64,000 bases of DNA, taken from Ceratodon purpureus. Taxonomy: Eukaryota > Streptophyta > Bryopsida > Pseudoditrichales > Ditrichaceae. The notes below the pieces were generated by a model, which had not been told where the DNA came from, did no database searches, and saw nothing but the letters and a program-made list of their open reading frames with translations. Position numbers and translations under genes: made by a program. This document shows positions 11,983 through 64,000 of this stretch, piece after piece. Where the stretch lies: NCBI GenBank assembly GCA_014871385.1, contig CM026426.1:91184893-91248892 (forward strand). The letters are read 5' to 3'. How positions within the stretch are numbered: the stretch's first letter is position 1; each line of letters begins with the position of its first letter.

Positions 11983-12033
11983 AAAGGTAAAAACCAGACC
12001 TCGAGTACACTTTTTGCATGATTATAAGACCGT

Positions 12034-12966: not shown

Positions 12967-12970
12967 GGAA

Positions 12971-22600: not shown

Positions 22601-22611
22601 CAGAGTTTAAG

Positions 22612-26040: not shown

Positions 26041-26112
26041 CCGGATACTGTAGAAGAACGTCGCATACTGTAGAAGTTAGTCACAAACTGTAGAAGTTAG
26101 TCGCATATTGTC
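26041..26112. repeat. 20-bp tandem repeat upstream of the 26.1-kb gene
   Basis: About 3.5 units of TCGCATACTGTAGAAGTTAG with period 20, ending 16 bases before the ATG at 26128. May contribute to the promoter or leader. Confidence 0.8.
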
Positions 26113-26127
26113 AAATATTTTGTCGTT

Positions 26128-30554: not shown

Positions 30555-31440
30555 ACTATCGTGACAGAAGTGGAAAGAAGACCCGCGCCAAAGCTGCAGA
30601 CCTCGATTGAAGAAAAGCTAGCGACGGTGGAAGCAAGCTCGGGAGGAGTACACGCGATTTCGGCAAAGGAGGGGATCTTGGCGATAGAGAGCAGAGAAGT
30701 TAGGTTGTGGAAAATAACGCAGGAGCAGGTTCAAGATCAGCGTAACCGAACATCACCCTGGCTGCTACCAAAAAGTGAGCGCGGCTGGAGCTCCGCAACT
30801 CAACCAGGTTTTTGTTTTTCATTTTCTCCATCTTTTTGCATATCCTACACCCCAACATTGGGTTGCATGTATCTGTGCAAATGCACACAATATTATGAAC
30901 ATTGGACTAGTTACTTACTTGCCACCAGCAATGAGCTGGGGCAAGCTTGTCTTTGTGTACTAGATTTTAGGACTTACACCCATTATTTTGTTAACTTGCT
31001 TTATAATTGCAATAGGTGTAGATTGTGTTACATGCATTCCTTAGATATTGGTAAGAGTGGGAAAATTGATAAATGCAACAAGTTTGCATTTTATCATCTT
31101 CTCACTGATTCCCAACCTAACTCATGCATAGAATTTGAAATGGTGCTTGGTGGTGTTATGTTTGATTGTGATATTTTCCAATGTATGTCTACTTGTTTCC
31201 TGTGCAAGTTAACACATTATAGTTGGTACAACAACTTTGTACTTCACTTTAATTGTGTTGCACAATTTAGCTTTGTTAGATTTGATTGGTTTGGTATTCA
31301 TTAACACTTCTTCCGAACTGTAATACTCCAACTAGGCCCACAACTTAATTTGTGGAATGGGGTTTTCAGTAGGATGATAAGAAGTGCCCTCCTCACATTT
31401 AGAATGGAATACCAATACAATTGCTTTGTTTTCTACAGAA

Positions 31441-33795: not shown

Positions 33796-33833
33796 TTTTG
33801 ACCAATGTAGCTACAAATATCTCTACTTCTATA

Positions 33834-34250
33834 GTATATATATATATATACTAAAAATCAAAAACTAATAATAAAATACTATAATAAAGTATCCCTAGAT
33901 ACTACTTTTTTAAAAGAATACTTATCACCTCGAACTCATCCAAAATTTAAGATTCATCCAAAATCTCAAAATCATCCAAAAGATAAAATTCATCCAAAAT
34001 CTAAAAATCATCCAAATTACAGAATTCATCCAAAGTGCAAAATTCATCCAAAATCTAAAAATCATCCAAAATACAGATTTCATCCAAAATGTAAAATTCA
34101 TCCAAAATACAAGATTCATTCAAGATGCAAAACTCACTCAAAATCTATAAATCATCCAATCTTCAAAGATCATTAAAAATCCAAAATTCATCAAAACCTC
34201 AGATTTTATCCAAAATACATATTACACCCCGAATTTAAAATCCATCCTAA
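33834..34250. repeat. AT dinucleotide run and ATCCAAAAT minisatellite
   Basis: An (AT)n tract at 33834-33850 is followed from 33926 by about 15 loose repeats of TTCATCCAAAATCTAAAA-type units. They fill the spacer between ORF1 and ORF2. A stop-free minus-strand frame across them (FWMNF repeats) is a composition effect. Confidence 0.8.
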
Positions 34251-34698
34251 AATACATGCAAAACTAAAAACCTACTAAAACCATATGCCTCATCTAAAAG
34301 TCAAAAGTCTTTCCAAACTAAGAACCCACTCAATACCTAAAACTCACATAATATTAGACACTATACAAAAACAAAATCTCTTAAACAAACACTCGACAAC
34401 CATGGCCTATCAACACCTCAAGCAAATAGAATACACCTATCTACATCACGAGAAATTAGAAAATGAGAGAAACAAAAACCACCACATATACAACTGGTTT
34501 GCTAACTCAATTACAAACCATTCAACCAAAGTCATTACAACCTCACATTACTTACCCTCACGTTTCGAACAAATAATACCTGCATTACCTAATCTATTTA
34601 ACACAACAAAATATATAACAACAAAATATTATAAATTAAATTATAAAAACCCTAAAACTAGTATTTACCAAGGATACTACTTTGTAAATAAATTAGCC

Positions 34699-34737
34699 CT
34701 ACTTCAATGCGGGGACATTGAATCAAACCCAGGGCCA
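34699..34737 (+). other. 2A-like ribosome-skipping peptide
   Basis: Codons for LLQCGDIESNPGP at residues 139-151 of the ORF2 N-terminal frame. This matches the DxExNPGP consensus exactly. In 2A elements translation skips the bond between the last Gly and Pro. 2A sequences are known in LINEs of trypanosomes, sea urchins and lancelets. Here it would release a 150-residue N-terminal protein from the enzymatic part. Confidence 0.85.
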
Positions 34738-37700: not shown

Positions 37701-39582
37701 CTTCTTCGATGGTTACAACAAGGTGACAATGGATACACCTTTGGTACATCCAAAGTTACAATCTCATCTGCAGCATATGCTGATGATTTAGCAGCTATTG
37801 CTAACAAATTAGCATCACTACAAATACAACTAAATAAATTAGACAAATTCTGCGAATGGGCTGGAATGGATCTTGCTATACCTAAATGTGCAGTGACCGG
37901 ATGCCCAAATAAATCAAAAATGAACCCCATAGCATTCAAAGCACAGATCTAAGCCACTAATATAAACTACAGAAACCAACCAATACCAATTTCGGACCAA
38001 CATGACCCTTATACATACCTTGGAATAAACTTAGCACCATCACTTAAATGGAAAACACAAATAAACACCACCACGGCTAAAGTCATCAAACAATGTCAAG
38101 CCTTAGTGGCTTGCCCAGCCACTATGAAACAAAAAATCAACATGGCCGATACAGTCATACGTGTCGGGATCGCATACAACTTCTACGCAGTACCATACTC
38201 TATACCAGCCATTAGAAAACTTGACAAAAAGATCATAGCACTCCACAAAACAATATATGGACTACCAAAAAGTACATCTAATATAGCTACACAAATCCCA
38301 CACGATCTATTCGGAATGGAATTCTTTTCGTTAAAAAATGCCTATCTACGATGTATTGGAGAACAATTACAAAATGGTCTCAATGACAAAGGCAGACTCG
38401 GTAAAATCTACTTTGGCTTAATACAATTCATACTTGCAAAATTTGGAGGCTCCGAAGAAATAGACCGCATCAAATATCAAGATTGTGTGAGATCCCCTAT
38501 CACTAGAACATTGTTTTTACTTAAACATGAAGCCGGAGTCCACCTTAAAAGCACTATAGGAAATTTTCTATTAAATCCATCCCCACTCGAAACCGCATGG
38601 ATGCAAGAAGCACAACACCTTCATGGCCTAAATCCCAAAACTTCTCTCAAACTACTACAAAAACTACTATTACATAATATAATAAATTTAGAACAAATAA
38701 CCATGCCTAACGGGACCACCCTAATGAACCGAGACGAATATAAAATATACCACTCCAACCCCACAAAACTCATAAAAAGTGCGCTAAATATTGCCAGTCA
38801 ATTATTTTGTAAACCCACTTGCCATCAAAGATGCCAAATACCATGTAGATACCGATTCCACTCCCCCCCAAGAACTCTAAAAAATGATTACATATTATTA
38901 AACCACAACATTCTACCACAACAATTGAACCCCCCAATACACCCCCCCAACCCTCCTATTCCCGAACTTCCTCCTCCTCCCAACAATATGCTTAAATATC
39001 CAAGACAATTTCCCATACACACAATACTAAACCACAAACAAAATAAAATCAAAGATCCAAATGGAATAAACTATAAAGATACAACATATTTATGCCAATG
39101 GACCACGCCAAATAATAATACATACAACAAATGACGTAGTCAAAGAGAACTTTTCCCGTGTAGCGACATTAACACTTGTCTCCACAATACTGAATTACTT
39201 ACTCAATACTACACTAAACAACAACATAAACATTTTTTAAACATCATCGAAAAGCACTTCTCCATAGAACAACAAAAAGATACAAGATACGTTACTCCGG
39301 CCACAATTATCCCACTGGCACATGTCTCCATTAATGAATGCAACTCAGAAAATGACATCGAAACAGACTCGAACATTATCTAAACACAACATGACGTCGC
39401 ACACATATACAAAGATAATGGCCGACACCTCATCACCATTCCGAAAACTAGACTACTATGGCTATGGAAACAATATCAACATGCAAAAAATACTCCACAT
39501 GGCCTTGAGCCATCCACCCAATCATTTGAAACCGAAATTGTCTGACTATATTAAAGATATAAATATCGTATTCCAAAATTGA

Positions 39583-40080
39583 TCCACTTAAATGCGCTCA
39601 ATATACAATACCAACTGAAATACTAGATTTTCTAATATCAACATTCAACATCCAGCAATCTTACTTTTCATCACCAGTTACATGCCCTACACAATTTATC
39701 CAATTTTACTCACCATTTTCACGAGATATAATATTTGGCTCCCTAGGAAAAGCATTTGATCATAAATGGAAAGGAATTGGCTACGCTCACCCCCACAATG
39801 AAACCGACTTACAACAAGCCATTCATTGGGCCCGCCTTGCGGCAAAAAATGACCCAAACAGTATCACCATAGTCATCTCTCCTGATACTAACTGGTACCA
39901 AAACTCCAACCCCTACACTGGTCAATTCCAGACACACATATTATTGCCCATTTTGCTGCAGACACCATTACATATGACGAGCCAACAATTCCCCCCGAGC
40001 TTAAACTCGAAAGAAAAGAACTTTCTACGCTCCGAATATTCTGTATCCATCACCAAAACAACAGCATCGGTACGCACGAG
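39583..40080 (+). other. Possible PCIF1-like methyltransferase segment in LINE ORF2
   Basis: Frame 39583 onward encodes FYSPFSRDIIFGSLGKAF, then GYAHPHNE, AIHWARLAA and ITIVISPDTNW. This order recalls the PCIF1-type adenine methyltransferase fold (SPF/FGS...F, NPPF motif, then a VxxPxW strand). The catalytic NPPF position reads AHPH here, so it would be inactive or a relic. It lies between reverse transcriptase and RNase H. The match is by eye and tentative. Confidence 0.35.
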
Positions 40081-41339
40081 CAAATAAATCAACTCGTTTA
40101 GACAATTAACAATCTCCAAATATTACAAATTCACACACAAATTGCATCTCCGACCCCCTTAAACACTCATGTCAATCCCAGTAAAAAATGGTCCAAATCA
40201 TATTATCCAAACACCCCCGCAAATAACTCAACACCTATCCCACAACTACCAAATTACCAAACGAATCTACCACTAAAATTCCACCCCCAATTCAGTTATT
40301 ACACAGATGGATCATTCAAACCCCCAAAAGAAATTGGCAACGGTAAATGGCGGAGAGAAAAAGCCGGATACGGTATTTACAGCCCCAAAGGCCTCAATAT
40401 CCCCAAAAGACTCCACGGACACCAAAATATACTACGTGCAGAAATGATGGCAGTACACAAAACACTCAGAATTATCAACACACAATTCCCTAACGAACTT
40501 GCATACATATTTACCGACTGTCTAAATGTACTATACTTACTTAATACACAAATAAAACATCCCACACTACATAATAGTCACCCCAATCAAACCACACTTG
40601 CCTCCATAGTAGAACTACTCCAACAAAGAACACAACCAACTTCACTATACAAAGTTAGAGCACACGTCAGCATTGACGGTAACGAAGAAGCAGATTATCT
40701 AGCAAAGCAAGGTCTAAAACTAGAACACAGAAAAGCCCTACACCCATACGAACATGCCCATGCCACTCCGTTCTACTTCCAAAAAGATAACTGGCCTTCA
40801 AAAAATGATGTTCCAGACAAAGGACCAGTTAGAACTCTAGAAAAACAAATCAAAAAATACGACAGAGAAAACAATCTAGAAATCATGGCCATACAAACCC
40901 CCAACATTTGCAAATGGACGGGAAATGTAGACATAGACAATGTACTTTCTAACAGATTTTGGGAAAACCCAGCCATCACTGACAAACAAAAATCATGCCT
41001 CATAAAATTCCGTACGGGAACTTATATGGGCCAAGCTAGAAAACAAATGTTCTTTGGTAGAGAAAGATTTCCATCCATCACATGTCCCATTTGCAACTCA
41101 CGCGAACCGGATACATGGCTACATGTATTACTCACATGCCAACAACAACATATACACTCCCTCCGAGTCAAAAGACACAACAAAGCAGTATCGGAAATTA
41201 GAAAACTACTAGTCTCATCGGAAAAATCCCGTTGTTTTATTCTAATGAATGCGGGCACCTTTAATGATAAACCCTCAGAAAATACCATTCCCAATTGGTT
41301 ACTTCCATGCACATGTGGCACTCAAAGATGTCATTGTAA

Positions 41340-41600
41340 CTCTAGATTTAGACCAGACATTCTTTGCGTTAAAGGTTTACCGTACCAAAGTGACCCCCCT
41401 ACAGAAATAAACCCCAATCTTACCATACAATTCATTGAATTCACATACTGCAATGACAGATTCTCACCAGAAACATTTGAAGCTAAAACCAACAAATACA
41501 ATCCATTAATTGCCAGTATTACCGCTAGAGGATGGAAAGTCGACCCCCTTATTGTCATCACAGCAGGCGCTAGAGCTACCACACACATTCCTTCAATGAA
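41340..41600 (+). other. Possible restriction-like endonuclease at the ORF2 C-terminus
   Basis: After the CCHC knuckle the frame has RPDILCV, then FIEFTYCNDRF about 25 residues later, then a Lys-rich helix (AKTNKYN) and GWKVDPLIVI. The RPD...E...K order is the pattern of the PD-(D/E)XK endonuclease found in R2, Dualen and Utopia elements. With an APE at the N-terminus, the element would have two endonuclease types, the defining trait of Dualen/RandI. Confidence 0.55.
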
Positions 41601-41954
41601 ACTACTTGCAGACAACTTCAAAATACCATGGCTTACCATCAAAAACACCTTTAAAAACATAAACACTATTGCCATACAATATGCCATGTCTATACTTCTC
41701 CACAAAAGAAGAATAGAAAACCACCAACCATTACCTGAAACATTAGACCCCCCATAGTCAAAGAAAACCCCTAAATAATCAAAAATATTTTAGTAGCTAG
41801 AGCTACTTAATTTGAATTGATAGCATACAGGTGTCAAGTCTCTTGTCAACTTCTCACAGAGGGGGCTGTTGGTTGGCACAACTCATCTACTGCCTGCGAT
41901 TGCTCACTCAGCAGTACCAAGCCACTTCATCCCCCACATCCACTCAAACGAGTC

Positions 41955-42040
41955 CATCAGGGTTCGAACCCGGACCAGATAAATGAGACAAACGCTCACC
42001 TCCAACCAACAAATGAGCTCGTGGCTTGGTCTCCAAAATT
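41955..42040 (-). repeat. tRNA-derived, SINE-like segment
   Basis: On the minus strand, an A-box-like GAGCTCATTTGTTGG is followed about 40 bases later by a perfect B box, GGTTCGAACCC. Together they resemble an RNA polymerase III internal promoter of a tRNA-derived SINE. The arms do not fold into a full tRNA by eye. It lies directly 3' of the LINE ORF2. Confidence 0.45.
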
Positions 42041-42081
42041 GCAATCAAATGAATCTTGAGTACATAATCACTACTATTACT

Positions 42082-42122
42082 GGTTACTTGTTACTTGTTA
42101 CCAGTTACTAGTTACTTTGTAA
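42082..42122 (+). repeat. GTTACTT simple repeat, possible LINE 3' tail
   Basis: Units of GTTACTT, GTTACCA and GTTACTA in a row. LINEs without poly(A) often end in short tandem repeats; this is the most likely 3' boundary. Confidence 0.5.
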
Positions 42123-42224
42123 CTAAGTGTCTACTCTCGAAAGGGGGGAGTAGATCTTTACTTCCATACCTTTGTCCTGTGGGCATTGGCTTGGGGGTGG
42201 ATCGAACAGACACTTAATTCACTT

Positions 42225-42243
42225 CGGTCTCCTCCGGAGACCG
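42225..42243. other. Stem-triloop inverted repeat
   Basis: CGGTCTCC, centre TCC, GGAGACCG: 8-bp perfect arms with a 3-nt centre. Single copy, inside the right end of the 30.8-kb element. Confidence 0.6.
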
Positions 42244-42384
42244 TAGTTTCTCTCTCTTCAGTGAGTTTCCGGCTTTCTGCTGGTTTCCTACTATCCTGAA
42301 AGACGCTGTACTCCAATTCGGATTTTTCTCTACAGTTCACAAAATCCAAATAATGTGATGTGTTTTTACACCTAGGTTGGCAAA

Positions 42385-42711
42385 CATCGTAGAATCTTAC
42401 GGTCCTGCTTACTACTTGCCAATATTACAATACCCACATGTTTGATAACTTTCGTATATTGAATACTCTTGGAGTCTTCTTTACTGTTTATGTAATGTTC
42501 TAACGTGAAGTGTTTATATGTACCTACTTACCATGGATAGTAGGATCTTACGGTCTTGTACAAGTTGCCAATCTTTGATATCCACATGCTTGATAAGTTT
42601 CGCACTTAATCCCGAGCATTGTTTGCTGTATTTTGCATTTCTAACCTTTATCGTCTCTCTCAATTTCATAAAACGGTTAGGTCTTTGCTGGATCATATGA
42701 TCCTACGATTC
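42385..42711. repeat. Degenerate family-A palindromes, right end
   Basis: Three damaged copies near 42388 (ATCGTAGAATCTTACGGTC), 42539 (TAGTAGGATCTTACGGTC) and 42689 (GATCATATGATCCTACGATT), spaced about 150 bp. They are the last ones before the right terminal inverted repeat. Confidence 0.7.
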
Positions 42712-42760
42712 ACCCTACCCATCATATTTCAGTTGGACTTTGACCAATCTGGACTATTGA

Positions 42761-42787
42761 AAGTCCGGATTTACTTAAATGTGGCAT
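42761..42787 (-). repeat. Right terminal inverted repeat
   Basis: Perfect reverse complement of 11956-11982. Going inward it continues with TTCAATAGTCC and GGTCAAAGTCC (minus strand), which match the copy at 54421 better than the left end does. AGAAGAA follows directly outside. Confidence 0.8.
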
Positions 42788-45000
42788 AGAAGAATATTCA
42801 TTTTAAATAATATTCTTTCACTTAGTAATGTTTGTGGATAATAGAAGAAGAATATAGGGTGCCAATGATGACATCATAATGTGCAAAGTATTTAAATAAT
42901 AAACAATGATGACAACATGGTGATGACATCATACACTCCAAAGTATTTAATAAGACAAAAAATAAATTAAACAAAATACATGTGATAATTTGATTGGATA
43001 TCACTAAAATTTATTATTTTTAAATAATATTTCTTCAATTAGTAATGTAGGTGGATAAATGATGCTGGCATCATACTAGATCCAAATTTTTTATAAAATA
43101 AACAATGGTGACATCATACTCCGTCGTGTACTTTAAAATGAAAGTGAAATTAAAATAATATAAAATAAAATAAAATAATTTTTAAAAAATATATTTAAAA
43201 AAAATAACGAATCATGTGATTAGAAGATCATCTTTATATAGCTTAAATTTATATTTAGCAATATAGGTAGACAATACTAGAAGAAAATATAGTGTTAATT
43301 ATGACATCATAGACCCCAAGGTATTAAAGAAATTAAAAAACAACAGGTGTGAAAATTATATTGGCCATTAGTTAGAATATTCCTTTAAATAGTAATATGA
43401 GTAAATAAAATTAAAAAAATATATATCGTCAAGGATGATAAACTAATCTACGAATACTTGTTAAATTAGAAATTCACATAAATCATATACATAATCAAAC
43501 TATATTGGTACATACGTCTATAATCACAGTTACATGAATATAGATTTATTTTTAGAAAGTATAAATGATATATAAAAATGAGAGAATTAAAAAGTAAAAA
43601 AGAAGAAATGTGGTGAACTTGTTGTGGGAACATTATGTTACTTCTAAGTTCTTTAAGGTCATTTTTCATATAATGGAAAACAAATACATTCAAGTTGAAA
43701 AAAGACATGGAGCAAATCTGAGTGCACTATTGTTCACCAATTCTGCAATGAATAGTTACCGTATTCTTCACTTAGCCATAATATGTGGTTAAAACGTAGG
43801 AAAATATAACAAAGGTTTTGGGTCTATAAAGATAAAGTATATCATGTTTGCAACAGCTGTCCATAATTTTGGTTTAGTAAGGAGCGAAGACTTCTTGAAA
43901 TGTACCCAGTGACGTTAATTTGATATCCAGGTTGTCAACCCTGAACGTAAATCTAGGAATTGGGTAGAAAGTTTATCATTTTGTAAAACGAATAGTAAGG
44001 GCTCTACAACGCTTCTAGATTTGGATAGTTTTAAAAATCCATAAACCGAGTTTAGACTGAACTTATCCCATATCGTATGCAAGGTAACCCAGCTGCGGTA
44101 ATATATGATAATTTTTACAATTCTCTTCTCGTCAGTTGGTAACCGAGTCCCAGTTCAGAGCTGGGACGAGAGAAATCAAATGGAATGACGTACGTCGCCC
44201 CAGACTGTGCGGGGACCGGCTCCAACATGACATAATGCAAAATTAAACAGGAGCCGGTTGTAAATATATGTTGACGCCACATTTTTTATCCACGACCGCT
44301 TTCGTTGAATTCTAAACATCTTTCGAATAATATCATACAATGATCCTAATTTAATTTGACTTCAATAGAAAGGTCGCACATATTTATGTTAATTTGCAAT
44401 ATCTAGCGTGTCATGTGAAAGTTCAGCTAATTGATGCACTGGGAGTATATGATGAACTATAGTACATAGGAAATTACAGGGTAGTAACTACTGACTGTGT
44501 GCCTGTGAAACAAACATAAAGTAAGGATTACTAAATTGAATAATGGTAACTGTATTGGTCAAACATAAAATAAATTAACTAAACAGCCAATAAAAAGAAA
44601 TTCAATTAAAAATATAGAGGGAATTATCATATTGTTCATTAATACATATCCAGAATAGTATAATAAGGCATGTGACAGTGGTGAATAAGTCCACATATAT
44701 CATATTATATAATTTATTTTATATTTAAATTTCTGATTGTCGCAAAAAAATATACAACAATAAAGTGTCACGGATGGCACCCTTTTCATTGAACTTTTAG
44801 GAAAAAAAAAAAAAAAAAACTAATTTGTACATTGGTTAAATAACGGAATATTCCCTGAAATAGTACTTTACGGGGTTTAGTAACCAACAATAAATTGTCG
44901 AAGATGACATTGTTTCCCTTCAAGTACTTAAATAATATAATAAAAGTAAGATATATAAAGGATAACAATCAGGATTTAAAGTGGATAGGTTAAGAACGAA
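42788..45000. repeat. AT-rich degenerate array, right part
   Basis: Same unit types as 10.8-11.95 kb: GTGGATAATAG with CCAATGATGACATCA near 42840, repeated in part near 43050 and 43265, and the CAACAATAAAGTGTCACGG type near 44755. A poly-A run lies near 44800. An inverted pair ACCGGCTCC / GGAGCCGGT (44215-44260) could form a hairpin. No coding frame. Confidence 0.7.
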
Positions 45001-45561
45001 ACATCTCCATATTTACATGTGGAAACGAATAAAGTTTCCTGGTACAAAGAAAATCATCATGTTATAGACTCGCAGGAAAAGATGTGTTCCTTCCTACTGG
45101 TATTCTCAATATTCATTAGTTTGATCACCAATTCATCCAAATAGGATGTATTTCATTTCATTTGCATGTTTTTTGATTCTGTGCACTACTGGCATGTAAT
45201 GGTTCATTCGTTTCAGGATATGCTTTCAAATTATGCACTGGTATGCGCTCTCCATATTTCAGTAGTGTATTCAAAAACAGGAGTTCCCAAAACCATACAA
45301 GTTTTTTCTTTCTATTCAGATAACCACTGCAAATGAAGGAAAACTGATAGGAGCAAAATTCATTTAATTATAATTATGTAATATGCCTAGAATACTATGT
45401 CAACAGCAGTGTTGTCTATGACCGAAACAAACCACTACAAGCAAAGAATGAAAAAAGCCTGAGCCACCGAAACACCGTGTGATTCAGGGCATGCGAATCA
45501 AACAACTATGGGGCATAAACGAATAATGAACCTCCTAGACAATCTCTTGGGTATGAATCCC
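45001..45561. other. No confident gene
   Basis: Probably the 3' flank of the transposase-like gene on the minus strand. No repeats or frames worth calling. Confidence 0.35.
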
Positions 45562-48500
45562 TTAGTCAACTACTAGAAGCTCAGAATGGATGTGATCTTG
45601 GGCCTCGGTGGTGAGTTTGTACACCTGGGTACCTCCACGTCCTCCTTTCTGACGGTGCGTGGCTGCTGGCAGGTCAAATTTCGTGGCCACTACCAAGTGC
45701 GAATAAATGAAAGCTGGTCGACATGGGTCTTCTCTGATGTAAGATGTACTGCTACTACCCCTTTGCTTATAATAAGTCCCAATCACAATTTGCTCCCCGC
45801 AGTAGACTGTCTGACCCTAGGTATCTTCCTTCCTATCCTCTTCAACGCCGTGTAAGGGCTCTTGACACTGAAGTATCCAGAATTCAGGAAACCCGGATCC
45901 GTCATCTGCTAAGACTGCAAAGTGATCACCAACCTCCAAAGTGGCAGCCAGTGACTCTCGAGCGCTCATGCGTGGATGGAGCCGACTCTCCTGAGCATCA
46001 AGCCGAGCTCTATCACGCCTTGTTAGTGTTTGCGGCTCACATGGCTCTAGCCTGATTAGAGTGAAAGGTTCAACAAAACCCGCACTATCGCATGGTCCAT
46101 CGCCGCCATCTAAGCAAAACCCGCAGAAGCAAGAGAGTCGCCGGGTCTGTAACGATGTCCCCTCTAATCCTACACTCCGAACTTGGTGAAAAGATTTGGT
46201 ACCTTCTACAGTGCGAGCATTTGGAGCCTGGAATTGGTTCACCTCAGCCTCTTTGACATCATAGAAGTGGCGGTGTATTGATCTTCGAGCAGTGTGGTAA
46301 CCTGCATTATCGCGGTTCATCCCCTGACGCAGGAAAGTCACCACGTCGGATGAGTTGTGCAGTCGCACTCCATCAGGCTTCACTTGCTCCCTGCGTAGTG
46401 CCTCCTTCACGTGAGCCCCTGCTCCATCCCACTGGCCCTTACCGTGACCCGTACCGAAATGATTCCATTGCATCATACAGCCAACCGGTAAGTCCTCCGA
46501 TCTGGTTAGAGAAGGATACCTCGCAACGAAGTACAATGACTTCGCACATTTAAATTGCGAGGCGCAGCCATCAGAGAAGACTATGTGCTCTACCGGGAAA
46601 AGAAACCCCTGTTCCTTCAAAAAGTCTCTGTGGAGCCCAAAACAGTACTGAACAAAATTGTTATCATGGGATTTGTCATCGCTGATATAAAAATGATACT
46701 CTGTAAGTATCTTATTTTCAGGATCCAACCCGTCCCATTCAGGATGAATTCGAAATGTAATGTGAACCAATATTGTCACCTGAAAACTAAACCAGTGTTG
46801 GGATTGAACCTCATTTTGCCACTTGAAAGCATAATTTTTGGCAAAATCTATGACAGACACAATTGTATCAGGACATAGGTTTCCCATGCATACCTTGAAC
46901 TGCTGATCCTGCCACTTTGCCTCGAAATTGTGGACCAAGAACTCCTCTAAATGGGAGCGCAAATCAACAACTAGTTCTGAAGGCGGCGTCATCTTGTGTT
47001 CTAAACGCAGTGCGTGGCGGTCATTACCATCATCTCCTCTCCCGACAAATACCATCTCAAAGCGCTTCCAAGAAACTAGGGCACTGCTGGAATCAGAGAC
47101 CTCCTGTGGACAAATCCGCAACTTCGATGTCCCACATGCCGCACAGTCTCCACGAATGCATCCTAATGCATGAAACTCATGCTCTTCAGGCTTCGAGCAT
47201 AGAACTAATTCGCACAGCGCCGTAACTGATGGAACAGTTAGCTCCGACGCTCTACATAACCCGGATCCATCCTCTGTTTGACACACATCACAATTGCTGA
47301 TGCAGTTTTTGTGAACTGTTCCACGCCGCATGTAGTTGAGGGCGTCCTTCAATTTGCCCATCTGAACGTGATATCTGCAACAGCAAGAATTAAATTCCTT
47401 CATCCTCCTGACATACCATGGTTGCAATGACTCAAATGACCGCACCCCGATCTCCACACCCAAATGCTCGGCTCTGAACCGCGTATACAAGGAAAGCTGC
47501 GGAAACCATCATCCACCAAAATACTAGTTAGGAAAATATACTTCTAGCTAATTACTTGGAAACTAGGAAATTAGATGAAACGACGACTTTGTCAAACTCT
47601 GACTTGGATACATGCTCGAATCCAGATTCAAAGCAGTCCGCCCAGATTCAAATCCACTTAAAGCTCCATATACACTAGTGAAAAAATTCAAATGGAGCCC
47701 ACAAAGAGACATCTCCGTTGTCAGACTTCAACAAGTCCAGAACCCGTAACACTCAATGCACTCAATGCAGACGCTACACCTAAATTGCACAAGGATTACT
47801 GTTCCTTGCATTACTGTTCCAAAGCCTACTGTTCCTTGAATTACTGTTTGTTGAATTCCTAGACGGGACTGTTCCTGGAAGTCATTGACATTACTCTTCG
47901 TTTTTTTAGATGATGACAGAGTTGAAGTAACCGTGCCTGCACTCACTACAGTGTCTCGTGATGAAGACAGTGAACATGATAGTACTTCAACATTACATCT
48001 ACTTCGAGTTCTTGTAAAATATGACGTTAATCATCTAACGAAAGGAAAAATGAAAATGAACCGAGAAACTGAATTGTGTTGAAAAATGTGGAGATAATAC
48101 TATAAACTAACGGAATGAAATAAGTCTAAGCGAATTAGCCTAGAACAATACCAATGTCATTTCAAGAGACCACTACTCCCAGATTATAGATCAAGGCCGA
48201 CACTGAGTAACAAAGACTGCATCGACCAGTCACTGTATTTACGTTATTTGCAAAGTGAATATACTACTACCTTGGACATTACCTCTAACACTAGACATTA
48301 CCACTCTAATAAACTTTGTCTACAACAATGTGATTAATCAACTGACCTGAGATTCGGTGAGGTGGTGTGTAGGGTGGTAAATCCACTCCTTTAAACCGAT
48401 GCGTTTTCTGGCGACGTCTTTTCTGTTGGGATTGATTCGGGTGTTTCCAGTCCAATAGTCTTCTACCAACTTCGTCACATGAAGAGGTAGACAATCAACT

Positions 48501-49917
48501 CGCCTTTGCCGTCCACAAACAGCCCACAGGCTTTTATCAGATTTTGACTCTAATGCTAACCTCCTCACCAAACCCGACTTCAAGTTTCTTCTATGAATTC
48601 CTATCAAGAGACTGGTCTGTCTAGCGCTGATACCACCAGAGCTTGGAAGCATAGGAATGATCACATTCCTGGCTCGTTGTTGGTCTTTTGAATGTCCACC
48701 TTTAACATACTGCCATCCATGAGAAATATTTGTCACCGCATTATGAGCTACCTCCATGTTAGAGTAATTAGGGAGTACACTACGCCAAATACTGTGCTTG
48801 AGAATCTTCGGTAGCAAGGCTTGTTGATACTCTATTCCCCTATTGCTTGTCTCATCGAACCATCTGAGAGCTAAATCCTCTACTGCACGAGTAGAGGACC
48901 TTTGAATATTGACCACACTAACTTCACTCTCTAAACTATCCTGACATACCCTCTGTAATCTCTCCTTCCTCCTCTCTCGGCACTTCTTCTGTCTGAGAGC
49001 CGCTTTCTCCCTCAACAAAGCTAAGTTCTCCTGAACAGCTAATCGGGCTCTTGTACCTTCTCCAACTCGTCTAGCCATCCTATCGTCTGTTAGAAAATAA
49101 CAGAAATACGTAACAATTGGACTTGCTAGAATATTGATCGCTACAATGACAACCACAAGGTTTGTTCCAAGTTCCCGGCTGCACAGGAAGTCGACAAACT
49201 CTACAGAATAATCTCAGCGATTGGAATGCAATAGCTAGTTTATTAAAGAGAGTCAGTGGTGGAGTATCACCCCCCAGCTACTGAGTTTACTCCACATTAA
49301 CGTTTTCACAACGAGTCGCAAATTATATGAGGCTGCTCTATCTATGTATCACTTAGCTGGCTCAAGAGCTCTAATCTACTTCGAACTTCTTCGTACCGAA
49401 ACCAGCGCAATCATACTTCCTTTCCGATTTGGCACCGAATCTTGTACCTGCGAAAAACGAAGTCATGATTAGAGAGTGCGAAATTCTTGAAAACGAAATT
49501 AAATGAAATATGAAAGAAACACATTAGGCATTCCAAAAGAGACAGTCAACACTTACCTCACCACAAGCATTTACGCATCTGTGACTGAACCTCTGAATCA
49601 AATTCGAAGTTGGATCTTGCAACTCTAGTTTCAGGGGTTTCGGAAACATGGGTGCAATCTGAGTATCTCAAACTTAATTCTGAGACTGGGGTTTGCGGCT
49701 CTATGTCCAAGAGGCTACGGAACTCTAAATTAGTGAGGCTATACTCCGAAACTGATGGACCGACTTCTATTGTTTCTTCACTCTCCCTGTAGAAGTCAGT
49801 AATCAACGTTTGATAAAACACCCACTCATCAACCTTTGGTTCTGTCACTCGATCTTGGTAGAAAAAATCCGTAATCAATGCTTGTGAAGCAGTTGAAGAG
49901 CTTCTTCGTGAACCCAT
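45562..49917 (-). pseudogene. Transposase-like gene, three exons
   Basis: Exons 49917-49557, 49086-48347 and 47496-45562; both junctions match in phase. Exon 2 has a basic, Arg/Lys-rich helix (KKCRERRKERLQ), likely DNA-binding. Exon 3 has a Cys-rich cluster (CDVC, CAACG), YHFYISDDKSHD, IVFSDGCASQFKC and HFGTGHGKGQWDGAGAHVK, the signature of a widespread eukaryotic transposase-like family with acidic catalytic residues. The tail (WILQC, then VIGTYY, AFIYSHLV) follows an in-frame TAG at 45817-45819. A TGA at 49558-49560 ends exon 1 one base before the splice donor. No frameshift seen, so decay is recent or limited. Family assignment is by motif memory only. Confidence 0.65.
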
Positions 49918-50529
49918 ACGTACAAAATCTCCTACAACTTAACTGCACGCAGGGAGTCTCTAGGCCGCGGACCATGTCGACGAGAGAGACCCAGGTGAGA
50001 GAGACGACAGTACCTCAAACGTGGTGTCGTCACATGCAGTAGGATTACGATCTAACGGCTCAGATTTAAAGTGACCAAACAACTAAGGGTCATAGGAATG
50101 AACGACTTTACTGGAATTCAACGGTTTCCTTTTCCTATTTCCAGATTCTATATGGTCGTTAAGTCCTAGAGAACATAGGTCGCAGGCACTCAGCAAATAC
50201 AAGCCGTTAAAGGAGTTAAAATCCTAGGTGCCAAAACTGGAATAATACAAATCAAAGTCGAATTTCCTTTCCTTACTCCCAGCGCCCTCATAATTCCAGG
50301 ATGCGGCCACTTCAATAATTCCCGAAAAAATTGGTTTCTAGCCTATTGCAAAATAAAAAACAAAATCAAGTAGCATAACGTTGTACGCACAAATCCAATC
50401 AATGCATCTAAAAAACTAACACATTGTGTACTTATAACAAGTTCCTGACTGTATGACTTCTCCTTGTGACATTCCTGAAATATTTAGCAAATTCGACTCA
50501 TAGGAATACAGAACACCAATCATTTCTAA
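49918..50529. other. Intergenic sequence
   Basis: Promoter side of the transposase-like gene and 3' flank of the next gene. No supported frame or repeat. Confidence 0.35.
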
Positions 50530-52766
50530 TTATCTCTTCATATTATGCAAAAACAAAGAGTGTTGGAACGTGCTGAAATACAATAATACAAAAAGTTCTT
50601 TTTCCCTAAACCAAATCACAAGGTCAAAAATCTCTAATTCAGAGGAAATGACATTGTGACGTTCCTTCCTAGACATCCTAGGATGCTTCCCCCCAACATC
50701 GTTCAATACGATCCAATAGTATGAGAGTGGCTTATAGATTCTTCTGGACTGGACTGAATCCGAAGATAGCCTCTCCCAATGATCTACAAAACCCGACAAG
50801 CCCTTAATCACATCAGGCAGGTGCCGCATCTCGCGAGGCGCCACGGCACCAGGAACACCACGGGGCCATAAAGACCGACCTTCTGAATCCTCCTTCCACA
50901 ACTTGATGCCACAACCATCTCCTTTTGGCAACCAGTCGTCGTCGTGACTGAAGATTTTATACTTCATGACTGGGCATCCTGAAGAATCTACATAGAATTT
51001 GAACTGATGAGCTTTAGTGTGACCCATTAACGTATTGTCGCCAACAAGCATCCACTCCGCGATGAATTTCTTGAAATCTGGGACCTCCTGAATGAGATGA
51101 GGAATTGTTGGTACAGCTTCATTTTTCATGAAGGACTTTATGTGAAGAGGTACTGTGGGGAAGTCCTCCCTCCGCAAAGCCATGCTCCATCGCCCAAAAA
51201 GGGCATCAATATCGTCATGGGTATGGCCGACCAGCATGAAGTTCACGTACACTTCACAAAACACGGATTTTCAATAAAGAGTTCCCTGGAGGTGGATTTA
51301 GGGGGTGACTCAAGATCCCGAAGGAGCTTCGCAAACGATCCAACCGTGTAATTAGCGTCGTGTGAGTAAATGTCAAGGCCATAATGGGCGTAACGCTGAT
51401 CCACATGCCCATGAGCAAGCATTTCCGTGATAGCGAGAGGAAGCTTCATGAGACCGTCTAAGTGTTTGACCTTGTGGGATAAGGCCGGCGACGCCGTCTT
51501 CGAGTGGTCCATCTTGTCATGCATAATAGTAAGAACTTCATGCGGAGTAGCCTTCGACCTGAATCGATTTAGGTAGTACAAGTCCCTATGCGCCATTGCA
51601 GAGTCATTGTGCAGCCTCATTTTCTTAGACCACAACAGGGACGCCTGAGATCCTGTAACCGTCAACTTCTTCTGGGACTGGAACTCATCACATTTTGAGC
51701 AACGAGCGAAGTTGTCTCCTGCCCGTTTGGCGTAATATTCTGGATAGCTAAGCCTCCTGATCTTGCTCAAGTTAGAAGCGGACATAGGAGGCAATCTGCA
51801 GTCCGCTAAATGCTCATCGAGGATGGGAATCTGTTCCTTCCATTTGAAACTGGAAGGCAGAACTTTAGCTACAACTGTCTCCCCTGAAGGCAGAACACGA
51901 CTCTTGTGGGGCATGTGGTCGGCATGCCTGTCCAGGATGGCCCCTAGGACGGCAGTTGCTACGACTGTGTGATTTTGAGGTTTACGTAAACCAGTATTAC
52001 CGTGAAATTGAGCCTCGAAACCAGCAGCAGCAAACTGGGCATTTCTATAGAATGTACTGGAGCTCACTCCCATAATCTTCATCCAGGCGAAGGGGCAAAC
52101 ATCTATGCCCTCCAGAGTCACCACACTCCTCCCCACTGAATTCTTGTGAATCTGTCTATGCTCGTCGAGTTTTATGTGGTTACAGAGCTGCACTGTGGTC
52201 TTGTCGTACATACGCAACCGTAGAGTAGAGATTTTATCTTTGGGATAGTGTTGGACGCATAGGTGAGCGCAGCACGTGTTTGCCGCTACAGAGTTGATTG
52301 ATGGCTGGGTCATCAGAAACTCAGCGTGACGTGATATAGGTAGGGGGGTATTCCTAGAGGAGTTATCATACGATCGGGTACGATCTCCCAGGGATCGGTT
52401 ACGCTCCGCAACCCAACGGTTATATACATCACGTTGACTATGGTGCTCTAGGCTAACTCCATCCAGAAAGACGTGGCTGATAGGCCACGTTTTGAAGGAG
52501 TACCTCCAATCATCCTCTGACTCTTCTTCGACTAACGAACGTGGTACCTGGACGACGACAACGGAATCACCAAGGGGGCCAACCGTGTCAGATACCTAGC
52601 TGGACCGTGGGTTCCGGATCAAACCCTCTGCTAACACGATATTGTCGTCACTGAATATAGTTACAGTCTTGTTTTGCCACAATCTTGAGGGTATAACCAC
52701 AAAGTCTGGAAGGTCAGGGTTTAAGGGCGCTTTAACCGATACCTCGTCATCTAAGGAGTAATCCAT
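50530..52766 (-). pseudogene. DUF7869-like protein with internal deletion
   Basis: Frame opens at ATG 52764-52766 and runs through TAG 52596-52598 to about 51260, then shifts to a second frame ending at 50530. It has a Cys-pair region (CSKC), TIMHDKMDHSKTA, a HGH segment, and after the junction FMLVGHTHDDIDALF. Compared with the copy at 23.6 kb, about 50 codons holding the LDNSAKDNKN segment are missing at the junction, so an internal deletion inactivates it. It supplies the N-terminal region that the 23.6-kb copy lacks. A family-B hairpin sits 100 bp before the ATG. Confidence 0.7.
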
Positions 52767-52863: not shown

Positions 52864-52888
52864 AGTTTAGCTTGAGTCGAGCTAAACT
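52864..52888. repeat. Single family-B hairpin in a 5' leader
   Basis: AGTTTAGCTTG, centre AGT, CGAGCTAAACT: one G/T-type mismatch in the stem. It lies about 100 bp upstream of the ATG at 52766. Confidence 0.85.
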
Positions 52889-54294: not shown

Positions 54295-54420
54295 CGCAAC
54301 GTCTTAAATCAATGATCATAACTATAGATGTAGTATTAATATATGATATCGACAAATGCTCTAGATGCTTATGCAAGCATACAATCCCATTAATCAATTC
54401 TTTAATAATAAATTAAATTT

Positions 54421-54453
54421 CACATTTCAGTAAATCCGGACTTTCAAAAGTCC
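54421..54453 (+). repeat. Third copy of the terminal repeat motif
   Basis: CACATTTCAGTAAATCCGG followed by a short inverted pair GGACTTT/AAAGTCC. It matches the 30.8-kb element's right end (read inward) for about 50 bp including GGTCAAAGTCC. It marks a related element end whose partner is not in this window. Confidence 0.7.
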
Positions 54454-54624
54454 ACATCGGTCAAAGTCCTGTTCTCGAGTCTGGTCAAAGTCCCCTTCGT
54501 TACTCTGGATCATTTGGCTTTTTGCTCGAACCCCTTCTTAAGCATAAGTATCTTTGTGCAACGAAACAGTTGTTCCATTCTTAGTTTTCCTTCTATTTCA
54601 TCTGCTTCTAGTTCATTTGCTGTG

Positions 54625-54960
54625 ATGAGGAGGGCGGGCGGTGGTTTTAGGGTGTCAAGTTACCCGCCAGACGAGTGGGAGGTGGTTGTTCCCTCACAAG
54701 GAGTAGAGGAGCTTCGTCCGTGGTTTATGGCGGTGGAATGCGCCCGTGGTCACGGCGTAGCCATTCCCGCGTGGAACCGGATTGCACGCCTAATGCAGCC
54801 AGGTGTGCAGTGGGATTGGAATATTGCACACGGTCTAGAGCAAATGGAGATTATGAATGCTTCCAACATCAAGTTTCCCCTCACCTCCGGCGAGGTCTCC
54901 TATATGGCTGATTCTAATGAGGAGGGTAGCGGGAATTTGGGGAGCCCACCACATGAGTGA
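54625..54960 (+). CDS. Unknown protein, VEELRPWF family, copy 2
   Basis: 111-codon intact frame, ATG to TGA. The central 60 residues match the 26.1-kb protein: VEELRPWFMAVECARG, then VAIPAW, LMQPGVQWDWNIAHGLE, NASNIKFPLT. The long acidic tail of copy 1 is missing. It lies about 170 bp downstream of the terminal-repeat motif at 54421 and inside the long AT-rich inverted repeats, so its context is again a mobile element. Function unknown; a small folded domain with several buried Trp residues. Confidence 0.6.
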   Translation: MRRAGGGFRVSSYPPDEWEVVVPSQGVEELRPWFMAVECARGHGVAIPAWNRIARLMQPGVQWDWNIAHGLEQMEIMNASNIKFPLTSGEVSYMADSNEEGSGNLGSPPHE

Positions 54961-59490: not shown

Positions 59491-59603
59491 GCAAGCAAGT
59501 TTTATCAGCTTTACCATGGCGGAATCTGAAGAAAAAACAATAAAATGGCCGAAAGGTATTTCAAAGTGTGCAAACTGCGTTAAAATCATTTAAAAATCAA
59601 GAA

Positions 59604-60215
59604 CAGTTTAGCTCAAGTCAAGCTAAACTGCTTGCGGAAGACAACTATCGCTCGACAGTTTAGCTCAACTCGAGCTAAACCCACATTCACAATGAATATA
59701 TAATGATACAAACTCTAAAAGGTCTTCAAATTAAACTAATAAATTGCTACAATTTAGCTCGATTCGAGCTAAACTGTAGTCAGATACTACTGTCTATCCT
59801 CCAGTTTAGCTCGCGTCGAGCTAAACTGCAAGTTAACTTTAGTATCTGACTACAATTTAGCTCAAGTCGAGCTAAACTGCTTGGGTTTCAGAAAGAAGTA
59901 CTCAGAGTTTAGCTCGAGTCAAGCTAAACTGTATGTGAACCTCCCATAAACTACTCGGGAGATCCACCTACAGTTTAGCTCGACTCGAGCTAAACTCGGA
60001 GTGCTTCTTTCTGAAACCCAAGCAGTTTAGCTCGACTCGAGCTAAACTGCAAGGGACCATGCTGGGAGCTCTACAGTTTAGCTCGAGTCGAGCTAAGCTG
60101 CTCCACCCCTACCATGGGCCCCTTGCAGTTTAGCTCGACTCGAGCTAAACAGCTGGGATGTCATGTGATATATTTTATAATTGAACCGCCATTTAGCTCG
60201 AATCGAGCTAAATGG
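59604..60215. repeat. Family-B hairpin array, 11 copies (intron 1)
   Basis: Hairpins of about 27 nt (12-bp arms around a 3-nt centre) start near 59604, 59656, 59750, 59802, 59853, 59905, 59971, 60023, 60074, 60126 and 60189. Seven of the ten spacings are 51 or 52 bp; the others are 94, 66 and 63. Arms are CAGTTTAGCTCG and CGAGCTAAACTG with centres ACT, AGT, ATT, AAT or CGT. The last copy has CCATTTAGC/GCTAAATGG. All lie in predicted intron 1 of copy B (59556-60254). Confidence 0.95.
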
Positions 60216-61721
60216 TTTTGAATTTGTCTAATGTTAAACGTCTCTTCCTTGCAGTGAGGAGAGAGCAAGGGTACTTGAGGCGCTACAGCATTTTTTCAAG
60301 CCCGTTCCTAACTCTGATTCAGATGACGATGACGGGGATGACTCAAGAAAATTTGAAGCTTGGACCTTCAAAGACCCCTCGAAGGTCAAAAATTGGACAT
60401 TGCGATGAGTTGCACACACATTATATCTAGCGTTCGCAACCATTTACATAGGAGAAGTACAAGATCCCTTGGTCATCGACATGGAAACCAAGGTCACCGA
60501 GTTTGACCATAAGGAGAAAAGCCAAATAAAGATCCTGTGCTCATCTATGGGGACTAATCCATACCTCTTCACCATAGTAGTAGACGTAGAAAAGAACCTC
60601 TTCGACCCGATTTCCTTAATGGAAAGTCTGTCGAATTCATACTACGATGAGATAGTGAACACTTTGAGGCAAGAAGTACTGGACAGGAAGTGGGCAACAA
60701 AAGATGGACGTACTCTCCCGGCAAAGTCCCTAGCTTGGAAACTCAGGAATGTTGTTAGCACCCTTACGCTCGCCGCAACAGAGGCAAAGGTTCGGCAATC
60801 CCTCAGAAAATCTTCTATTGACGTTTCTGGAGTGACAGCAACCGGGAGCCACATGGGAAGCCAACAGACAGGACGCAGTAGGGGGAGAGCAATAGTTCCT
60901 TCCCAAAGCCGGGGCGCTTCTGCAACTCCCACACCCCTCTCACCATTGAAGAAGAAAGGCCTCGAGAAGAAAACTGACAAGCCTAAGTCCAAGAAGGACT
61001 TGCTCTTATCTGCGGAGGACTTGGCAACAAGTTTGAACTCTGTTCTTGTGGAACTTCCAAAGGTGAACAAGGTTGGAGAGGTCCTGGACTTCGATAATGC
61101 CAATCGAATTTACGAGGGTTTCTTCGCTGATTGCCAGGAGGAGTTCGTCTTCAAAACGAATGGGCAACCAAAGAAGTTCAGTGTGGACGTGACGCGGTGC
61201 AAGCCCGCACCGGCCCATTGGACTATCCATGCTTATGAGAAGCGGGGCATGGAGGAGATGAAGAATTACTTGATCAACATGCCGGATAGGACACAGAAAC
61301 AAACCCTATGTGTGATGCCAGATACGGCTGCAAGACCACAACAAGAAGACGATCTAAGGGGCTGTACATTGTGGATCATCAACGGGCAACACAGCGTTGC
61401 GGCGTCCAAATCAGTCATCGAGGATAACGCCAATGAGGTGTTGTTGAGGGACTTCAGGAGGTGGGACGCGCACATCGTTTGGATCCACGATTATGATAAG
61501 CTGCGGAAGATCTCAGCATTCTATAATCGGGTGAACCATCTGGCACCCTTTAAGCCAACTTGGGCGAGCAATATCATTGCTGCCAGGACAGTGTGGAAGA
61601 AGTATGGTAAGCCGCAACCAAAACATGCCGCCGGTGGTGCAACCGAGTCCAGGACAAGAGGTCCGGAAAGAAATCCAGCCTCGAAGACGTAGGACGTAAG
61701 TTCACTGATTCATTAGCATTA

Positions 61722-61848
61722 GCAGTTTAGCTCGACTCGAGCTAAACTGCTTGGAGTTTAGCTCGAGTCGAGCTGAATGTATATAATCTTCTTTGTTTTC
61801 AATGATCTAGTATATCTAACGCACTTTAGCTCGAGTCGAGCTAAAGTG
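61722..61848. repeat. Family-B hairpins, 3 copies (intron 2)
   Basis: Copies at 61722-61750 (GCAG...CTGC ends), 61754-61778 (one damaged arm) and 61822-61848 (CACTTTAGC/GCTAAAGTG ends). All are inside the predicted intron 61696-61895. Confidence 0.92.
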
Positions 61849-63303
61849 TAATTGCGTGAAATCATCATCTAAGGTTTCTTCCTGTGCGTATGCAGAACTT
61901 TGTGGAAGCAATCAGGGAGCGCTTTGCAATGATTGATGTGGCGTAGCATCAAGCCCTGGTGGCGAAGAAGGGAGGGAAGAACACTATCTCCCTGACAAAC
62001 GAGCTCAAGATCATATGTTCTAGTGATGAAACATGGGACATGCGAACATGGGACATGATGTTGTGGAAGGAGGTGATCGCGTCTGCGGCATATGGTGGAC
62101 TCATAGATCCCGACACCGAAGAACCTCACAAGAAATTTTATGAGAAGAAGGGGTTTGTTCCAGACAAGGATGGAACGCTTCCGAGGGAGTTCTTCAAATG
62201 GTTCGGGAACTTGACAGAGGCAGATCACCAGAAGCTGTGTAAGCACATCCTACATATGTCTGGGCCAAGTCGGAAGTACACATATCCGAAGGTTGTTATC
62301 AAGCAGAATACGAATGTACTGGAGGACTGCTACTCGGTCAGGGAGTGGGTGGAGCAGAGAAAACGTAAGGCAGTAGCTGAGGCGGAGCTCAACAACATTA
62401 AACCAAAGCTCCATCTATTCAAGAGAGATGGCCTTGATGTACCCGCTTGGAAGCATTTCAAGAAGGCTTACCATGTCTCCAAGGAGTCCAAGCACGTTCT
62501 GCTTGATTGGGGTATTCTAGACTCGTACTGGACTAACTCCAGAGCTACACAGTTTCGCAACAAGTCCGCCAAGGATCTCTCCCCATATGCGGTTGAGTTC
62601 TTTAAAACCTTCCTTAAGGTTCGAGATGCGTTTCAGAGTCCATCAGCTCAGATGTGGTTTCTCCCATTCATCAGGGAGCCTCGACTCACCTTCGGATCTT
62701 GGCCCTCCGATATATGGAGGTTGTCGTCCGAGGCACTCACATTTGGAATCATCGACTTCCGGTTCCTCCCAACCTACAAGACGAGGCATAACTACACTTT
62801 GGAGAACCCCTTGTTCATGGAGTTCTTCAAAATGATCGATGACTATGGACAGCCCCACTTCAACGATGTTCGGCACTGGCTTCTGATTTGCGAAGACGAT
62901 GAGGACTTTGCCCAGGTGCTAACTTGGGTGGAGCGGAACACCTTGAGTGGTCGCAGAAGAGTCAATTCCGAATATTTACCCGCTCCTAACGAGTGACTCG
63001 GTGGACATCCCCCAAAGAGCAGAATCGCGATGGAACCCGTCAAACTCCTGTTTCTCATTGATGATAATTTACTTGAGAACGAAGTGTCAAATCCAGAACC
63101 TCTGAGCGAGTACAGAACGGCGGATCACCCACTGTACAAGGACAAAAGAAAGTTCAACGAAAGGAGGTACGCACTGTATCCAATCGGAGTTAAGGATGGA
63201 GTTCTACTTGCAGGTCCACGACACTTTCTGCAAAAACGGGGGTGGTGTGTATCAGCTATATGGTGGAACGAAGCCCCTACTGGCCGCCACGGTAAGTGTT
63301 TCC

Positions 63304-63400
63304 ACACTTTAGCTCGAGTCGAGTTAAATCGTTCTACTGTTTTGATCCTATGGACCATGTATGCATACACTTCCACACTTTACCTCGAGTTGACCTAAAC
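63304..63400. repeat. Family-B hairpins, 2 diverged copies (intron 3)
   Basis: Imperfect copies at about 63304-63330 and 63376-63400, in the predicted intron 63292-63430. Confidence 0.8.
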
Positions 63401-64000
63401 CTTGTTTACCTTGCCTTTGGTATTTTTCAGATGCTCTCGATCTCGGCTTCCGTCGTCGCGGATGATAGTGACTCAGCTCATATGATCAAAGCACAGTCAC
63501 TTGGTTTGATTCTGGACCCAATCGATTTTAATGCCGACGCATATTATGTCGATAAGGAACGGTTTCCGGAATATGGCAGAGCTGTGCGGAAAGGGAAAGG
63601 CAGAGCTGTGGAGGAGGGTGACGATGAAGAACTGGAGGAGGATGCCCCTACCGAAGAACAAACCCCCTCCTCCAGTGCTGCAGACATCAGCAATGAGGGC
63701 GATGCTCCGCCTTCAGATCCGGTGAGTCAGACAGCATCTGAAGGTGGAGTGGGGAGAAGACTTGATTTCCCTGACGTCGACATTACGCGTACAGACAATG
63801 AGAGACCGGGTTCTGCACCGGAGCTGGGATCAGGAAGTGGGAGAAAGACTGGCGGTGCGCGAAGTACTCGAAAGCAGGCACAGAAGAAAAAGAAGATCAA
63901 TCCTACAGCTCGGCAAGCCTCCCCGTTCGGGAGAGCCGCTCCCTCTCCGGATGTTTAAGCTCTTATCGCAGAACTACAGGCGTCCAGGGATAGGGAGAAA

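Follow-up and report, generated by a model that had tools for sequence, protein, structure and literature searches.

What are eleven palindromes doing in a single intron of a moss gene, and is it their pairing as RNA or their sequence as DNA that evolution has retained? The question is raised by a 64,000-nucleotide stretch of the Ceratodon purpureus genome (GCA_014871385.1, contig CM026426.1, positions 91,184,893 to 91,248,892 of the forward strand), referred to here as the window, in which the palindromes precede an exon with a predicted ParB-like fold. Comparison of genome stretches has shown that they belong to one mobile element, a giant DNA transposon, and they are probably two-fold symmetric DNA target sites that the element carries for a protein of its own. 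This reading is carried by the element itself, by the recurrence of the same site layout in its non-coding DNA, by constraint on the site core, and by the agreement of site type with protein lineage.

All eleven palindromes at 59604-60215 are present as the original prediction described them, and their sequence is unlike that of a second set, family A, found elsewhere in the window. Specifically, they have in common a 21-bp dyad, TTTAGCTCGA-N-TCGAGCTAAA (family B), which was matched with up to three mismatches at 4592 sites in the genome scanned (362 Mb, 151 contigs), versus one site for the reversed pattern, an abundance well above chance. The predicted period of 51-52 bp is seen in seven of the ten start-to-start spacings, which run in order 52, 94, 52, 51, 52, 66, 52, 51, 52 and 63 bp; those of 94, 66 and 63 bp depart from it. 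Helical phasing of the spacings (47, 52 and 57-59 bp) was considered and no claim is made for it, since spacings of 39, 63-66, 88 and 94 bp occur too. The three-base centre holds, reading A-N-T in 10 of the 11 copies, so that the duplex site is a dyad around one free base. In arrays, this base is G in 124 cases, C in 115, and A and T in 7 each, the similar counts of G and C indicating a site without direction. Such a site is very probably a dyad in DNA. The sites read in the window are as follows.

59604..60215: array of 11 palindromes TTTAGCTCGA-N-TCGAGCTAAA in the intron 5' of the ParB-fold exon; cores start at 59607, 59659, 59753, 59805, 59856, 59908, 59974, 60026, 60077, 60129 and 60192
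61726..61845: three palindromes in the next intron (cores 61726, 61757 and 61825), with orthologous sites in other copies
63308..63399: two decayed palindromes in the third intron
52866..52886: remnant of an array of 47-bp period beside the DUF7869 gene
39..369: left terminal site class TTTAGGTCG..CGACCTAAA, with sites at 39 and 193 and a chimeric site at 349

The element is best seen in a compact copy, E1 (C1:298018-316955), which is 18,938 bp long and has inverted ends AACACCATATTCGTTATTTTGGGAGAT and a TTGT duplication. A second copy, E2, has GAAG on both flanks and reaches 37.8 kb through an insertion, about 19 kb in length, close to the left end. The window copy runs from -481 to 67520 in window coordinates, its length being due to a 49.6-kb insertion that splits the element; its left end has one mismatch, and its flanks agree only after a one-base shift. 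Thus, among the three copies in which both ends were read, a 4-bp target-site duplication (TTGT, GAAG) is present in two. The CACTA (En/Spm) elements are recognized by CACTA/CACTG ends and a 3-bp duplication, and the ends AACACC and 4-bp duplication seen here are not of this type. In E1, a DUF7869 gene on the minus strand (Pfam, E 1.4e-41) is followed by a small gene; next come a multi-exon gene, which lies on the plus strand, and a frame for a NIF/FCP1-like phosphatase (PF03031, E 1e-13, L008:8486-9310). The ParB-fold and methyltransferase-fold exons of the multi-exon gene are adjacent and on one strand in E1, and may form a joint protein. The corresponding genes in the window are listed below.

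59516..59555, + strand: possible short upstream coding exon, a candidate whose frame joins the next exon uncleanly
60255..61695, + strand: ParB-fold exon, with limits from splice signals; a degenerate copy with an in-frame stop near the exon end
61896..63291, + strand: methyltransferase-fold exon, with its frame broken in the window copy; the fold is predicted for the E1 equivalent, L008:5494-6867
63431..63958, + strand: start of the following exon; the element continues beyond the window end
54412..54960, + strand: small gene with a VEELRPWF stretch; its counterparts in E1 and in the nested insertion have no Pfam match
50709..52595, - strand: 5' part of the DUF7869 gene, the transposase candidate, with its frame broken in the window copy
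748..1090, - strand: 3' part of the DUF7869 gene, separated from the 5' part by the nested insertion
1091..50708: nested insertion of 49.6 kb that splits element B, with ends GGGGG(C/G)AAGCATCCT and duplication AACA; carries family A genes

Sites are found in the terminal regions of the element, in an array beside the DUF7869 gene, and in three introns of the ParB-fold gene. The interior contains the main site class only, laid out as an array of about 52-bp steps in the intron 5' of the ParB-fold exon, up to three sites in the next intron, two in the third, and one beyond. Placement in a "first intron" comes from splice signals judged by eye, and a further 5' intron is possible. The array beside the DUF7869 gene, in 47-bp steps, comprises nine palindromes in E1 and eight in E2, and is a remnant in the window copy. 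Of the terminal variant TTTAGGTCG..CGACCTAAA, from which the internal class differs by a symmetric base change, E1, E2, E3 and the window copy each have sites at 155 and 848-865 bp from the right end; E1 and the window copy also have them at 520 and 674 bp from the left, with weaker sites between; the left pair of E2 stands behind its insertion, and the left end of E3 is outside coverage. Mixed sites lie 830 bp from the left (E1 and the window copy) and 966-983 bp from the right (four copies). A search for the ParB-like exon gave 516 candidates, of which 98 were scored and listed and 30 of those 98 fetched. Sites accompany 29 of the 30 fetched exon copies, the window copy included, and none overlaps the exon; likewise, the intron array is at the same place in 29 of the 30, with a length that varies among copies.

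The cores of these sites have changed far less than the DNA around them. In 29-copy alignments, non-CpG diversity in the core was.033 in the second intron and.015 in the first, versus.106 and.150 in the rest of the intron (one-sided Mann-Whitney p.004 and 1e-7, respectively), with flanking-exon diversity of.096 and.080. Cores are therefore 3-10 times less variable than the surrounding intron, and the DNA sequence of the core itself is conserved. The original expectation that the repeats are constrained, and that their two halves stay complementary over long evolution, was borne out.

Site type follows protein lineage. Among 115 public-protein homologues (38 and 77 for the two exons), 32 read past the exon into a peptide that fits a translated palindrome; there were 36 peptide matches, all in the last 60 residues, versus an average of 0.21 in shuffled proteins, using peptide patterns that were fixed after the first alignment had been seen. 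Three half-sites were read via these peptides, namely TTTAGCTCGA, TTCAGCTCGA and TTTAGGTCGA, some of the TTCAG labels coming from one arm only, and a fourth, TTCAACTCGA, was read in DNA. This last, family D (C3:20300-25200), has ten exact sites TTCAACTCGA-N-TCGAGTTGAA, of which six precede the homologous exon, one falls in the intron that follows, and three lie further on, at the expected place of the third intron. In a tree of 40 proteins, with 21 rows labelled by site class and 19 unlabelled, each of the three classes with several rows makes up one side of a branch (supports 100/100, 98/90 and 100/100), and the four classes require three changes, the minimum, versus an average of 9.0 in shuffles, none of 200 being as low; near-copies favour such clustering, and the family D row is on a long branch. 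More distant than D are families A and C, whose proteins align with each other over their frames. Family C has the dyad CATCGGGrGATCyCCCGATG, with 14 sites before and after the exon in one locus (L050) and none for the reversed pattern, and its protein matches the B profile at hhalign E 1.6e-5 (probability 79%). Family A is represented in the window itself, as follows.

14335..19735, - strand: family A relative of the ParB-like gene, with 20-bp palindromes GATCGTAGGATCCTACGATC between its coding frames
25363..25750: family A palindromes in a tandem array of 92 bp

The family A palindrome GATCGTAGGATCCTACGATC contains three GATC words in 8-bp steps at both of these places. Taken as a whole, these comparisons show that site type agrees with the lineage of the ParB-like protein, and that both have changed together across relatives.

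Which protein reads the sites? It is fairly probable that the reader is the ParB-like protein of the element, its binding being inferred. A structure model built on 60409-61689 predicts a ParB-fold domain at about residues 250-380. The protein would bind the palindrome as a dimer, with one subunit per half-site, and its loading places would be the element ends and the arrays, both those within introns of its own gene and the one next to the DUF7869 gene. From there it might coat or mark the non-coding DNA of the element, which would keep the genes transcribed and allow the ends to be recognized; the ParB fold would offer a route for spreading from the palindrome. An anti-silencing role for the protein is a tentative proposal. 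More doubtful is a full parS-like system of self-recognition, in which a ParB-derived clamp with a methyltransferase-like domain would spread and block host silencing, with site and reader co-evolving in each lineage. The methyltransferase-fold part itself is probably without the usual methylation activity because the DPPY motif is absent (0 of 48 aligned sequences); DFR stands at the position judged equivalent in 46 of the 48. This part may instead aid DNA binding or dimerisation. GANTC and GATC are classical targets of adenine methylation, and all four families read in DNA have one or the other at the centre (GANTC in B and D, GATC in A and C), GANTC being retained in 309 of 360 family B sites. 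Such centres could be chance for a dyad ending in GA and are kept as a lead; adenine marking, or its reading, may take place at the dyad centre.

Several points weigh against the ParB-like protein as reader of its own sites. The model of the whole ParB exon has a mean pLDDT of 64 and a pTM of 0.42 and is weak beyond the domain, and by sequence neither exon had a significant match in PDB (best E 0.065 and 0.69). The nucleotide-contact motif of ParB proteins is GERR-like, and where it would be expected, by an equivalence drawn by eye, the sequence INGQHSVAAS places GQHS instead. No helix-turn-helix (HTH) exceeded the Pfam cut-off, regions outside the two matched domains being barely covered; a weak Mu-type HTH match was found in one of 48 members (E 0.078). 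For homologues from other sources, site classes come solely from protein sequence, in some cases from a single arm, and 19 of the 40 tree rows are unlabelled. One site in the second intron, site b, is looser than the arrays (0.76 versus 0.44 core mismatches), and exchange between sites could explain part of the low core diversity. Two homologues, P0031 and P0080, are filed under uncultured cyanobacteria; P0031 continues into a palindrome and is therefore probably misassigned moss DNA, as P0080 presumably is too. The sole site-less copy among the 30 (L027, C6:26380771-26385051) is a fragment captured at another place, with 88% identity to the ParB-like exon; it ends at the donor site and is followed by unrelated DNA without palindromes; a spliced retrocopy was rejected here since the donor site is retained ahead of the unrelated DNA. 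Finally, a lone exact family B palindrome lies inside an intron of a host HIT-domain gene (PF01230, E 8.7e-7; L012:4500-4603, C1:15616499-15616602), and sites are evidently able to land outside the element. Directly before this palindrome is a half-site with the same 12 bp on either side, which suggests that the half-site was copied in during break repair.

The DUF7869 product, or another protein of the element, could also be the reader, because both travel with the sites and co-segregation is unable to separate the candidates. In this explanation the transposase would bind them for synapsis or excision, as CACTA elements use subterminal repeats, and the ParB-like protein would have a different task. 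Such a role would lead one to expect terminal sites at constant distances from the ends, as seen for the right end in four copies and for the left in two, and the 47-bp array directly adjoins the DUF7869 gene. However, most sites in E1 lie kilobases inside the element, many of them in introns of the ParB-like gene where excision needs none, and the internal class departs from the terminal one by a symmetric base change. A transposase as the principal reader is judged rather unlikely.

The original prediction had proposed that the outer stems keep their pairing, and that selection or copying preserves pairing rather than sequence, as would be expected of RNA hairpins in the pre-mRNA or of a source of double-stranded RNA. 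An intron fold of -340.9 kcal/mol (z -19.5, 20 shuffles) and a 93-nt inverted repeat in the window copy, 91% complementary, are in keeping with this idea. Nevertheless, only 5 of the 11 outer trimers are fully complementary, the others being CAG/CCC, CAA/CTG (twice), GAG/CTG, CAG/CTC and CAG/CAG. The paired changes cited in its favour, CAC/GTG (61822), CCA/TGG (60189) and AGG/CCT (35-217), do exist, but CAC/GTG and CCA/TGG are single inherited sites: the latter reads ACA/TGG in 23 of 29 copies, CCA/TGG in 5 and TTA/TGG in 1, and the former CAC/GTG in 6 of 30 and CAA/GAG in 12. The copies at 35-217 are a separate site class near the left end, present in all three left ends read (E1, E2 and the window copy). 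Co-change of the outer stems was thus rejected, inherited sites having been counted repeatedly.

Pair counts across 360 sites, with up to four mismatches, from 29 element copies tell strongly against selection on pairing. Core changes affected the 5' arm only in 78 cases, the 3' arm only in 70, and both in 4 (148 one-sided versus 4 two-sided, with 2.6 expected), so that the core is near-invariant and its arms change independently, the very outcome that the original prediction had named as contradicting it. Three of the four double changes restore a pair, all at CpG, and CpG positions account for 79 of the 156 changed bases, with 41 G-to-A and 27 C-to-T changes on the sense strand; as C-to-T, which leaves a G-U pair in RNA, is not commoner than G-to-A, there is no sign of G-U tolerance. 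Flanking pairs do exceed expectation over all sites at positions -1 (267 versus 197) and -2 (293 versus 248), mostly because site classes are inherited by all copies; within arrays alone (253 sites), -2 and -3 are at expectation (232 versus 232.5 and 176 versus 177.0) and -1 is slightly above it (219 versus 200.9). Array positions -4, -5 and -7 to -9 also show an excess of pairing, which is attributed to inverted recurrence of spacers: among 149 tested (28-33 bp, from 217), the better match to another spacer of the same array was inverted for 99 and direct for 38, with 12 ties. Nor is the long fold-back kept, its spacer arms differing by 2 edits in 31 in the window copy and by 7-16 in the other 11 tested, although same-copy arms match slightly better than permuted ones (p 0.044, 12 copies). 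Moreover, sites occur near the element ends too. RNA covariation was ruled out by the 360-site counts together with the unconserved fold-back, and RNA hairpins under selection for pairing are very improbable. As read from these sequences, the two arms do change together between lineages but not within one, where individual sites decay arm by arm; the site of a two-fold symmetric protein dimer would behave in this way.

Neutral growth of palindromes, through slippage, template switching or gene conversion in arrays, is equally improbable. Array length does differ among copies, spacers do recur inverted more often than direct, and the lone host-gene site with its adjoining half-site suggests that repair can copy sites. 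Against this, sites outside the arrays average 0.38, 0.38, 0.17 and 0.76 core mismatches, so that three of the four non-array classes are at least as near the consensus as the arrays; conversion is not likely to be confined to 21 bp; and distant homologues have the same dyad again behind the same two exons. A guide array of the CRISPR/TIGR-like kind was rejected, as spacers are inherited between copies and recur inverted within arrays, no spacer-target search having been made.

The surroundings of the element offer some further observations. The nested insertion resembles its host in gene content, as it has DUF7869, frames of the NIF (E 5.1e-11) and VEELRPWF kinds, and a relative of the multi-exon gene, and it also has a large frame at 45820-47508 with no Pfam match. 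NIF/FCP1-like frames therefore stand beside both gene families (window 13473-14147, minus strand, and L008:8486-9310); phosphatases of this kind act on host RNA polymerase II tails. At 34279-41757, frames that resemble a non-LTR retrotransposon lie on a strand with strong G/C skew, and GDIESNPGP in the first of these resembles a 2A self-cleaving peptide. The contig of the window, C6 (110.5 Mb, 30% of the assembly), has 65 of the 98 listed ParB-like exon copies, a share biased by the ordering of that list, the best 98 of 516 candidates, by likeness to the window copy. We take the size of C6 to be compatible with a moss sex chromosome.

The element can be compared with several known systems. In Ectocarpus, the 21.5-kb transposon Sola1-1_Ec32 has, opposite its transposase, a gene for a ParB-like and DNA methyltransferase protein, according to the relevant passages of PMC12477816, and the moss element is like it in being a giant DNA transposon with an accessory gene opposite the transposase candidate, a ParB-like domain and a DNA methyltransferase fold. 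It is unlike the Sola1-1_Ec32 type, as described in those passages, in lacking DPPY, with its predicted N4mC/N6mA activity, in all 48 sequences, and in having palindrome arrays as candidate targets, no target being named in the same passages (PMC12477816). VANC proteins, in the portions consulted of PMC5735166 and PMC10398659, bind short motifs in the introns, intergenic and terminal DNA of their own VANDAL element, often in tandem arrays, and their binding leads to loss of methylation in Arabidopsis. As with VANC and VANDAL in these portions, motifs have accumulated here in the element's own non-coding DNA, in tandem arrays of variable length, and differ between related elements; the ParB-like fold and the long dyad set the moss case apart, the term "palindrom" being absent from the main text of PMC5735166.

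Like the Sola superfamily, the moss element makes a 4-bp duplication, its transposase candidate being a DUF7869 match; such a duplication is not unique to Sola. Bacterial ParB recognizes a palindromic parS site repeated near its own gene, and here too a ParB-fold domain is accompanied by a palindromic site repeated near the gene. Unlike ParB-parS, the system resides in a eukaryotic transposon, has a seemingly different nucleotide-contact motif, and showed no ParA among the 8 E1 frames scanned with Pfam, which are part of the E1 frames. In En/Spm (CACTA) elements, TnpA binds many short sites in both orientations near the ends, and such sites are present here as well; the ends and duplication are non-CACTA, and most sites are internal. 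In viral_contigs, the exact palindrome was found in no stretch, and the protein profile gave 11 pattern matches with none confirmed. Literature searches, mostly without subscription papers, found none naming palindromic targets of such proteins, nor DUF7869 together with a transposon; titles and abstract openings on Ceratodon palindromes held nothing on such sites.

Proteins of ParB-like and methyltransferase type have been riddles in giant algal transposons, and a similar combination is now found in a moss. The moss case adds thousands of defined candidate target sites, in several families that match the protein tree. As such, the idea that transposon proteins bind or mark their own element becomes decidable by a simple binding assay.
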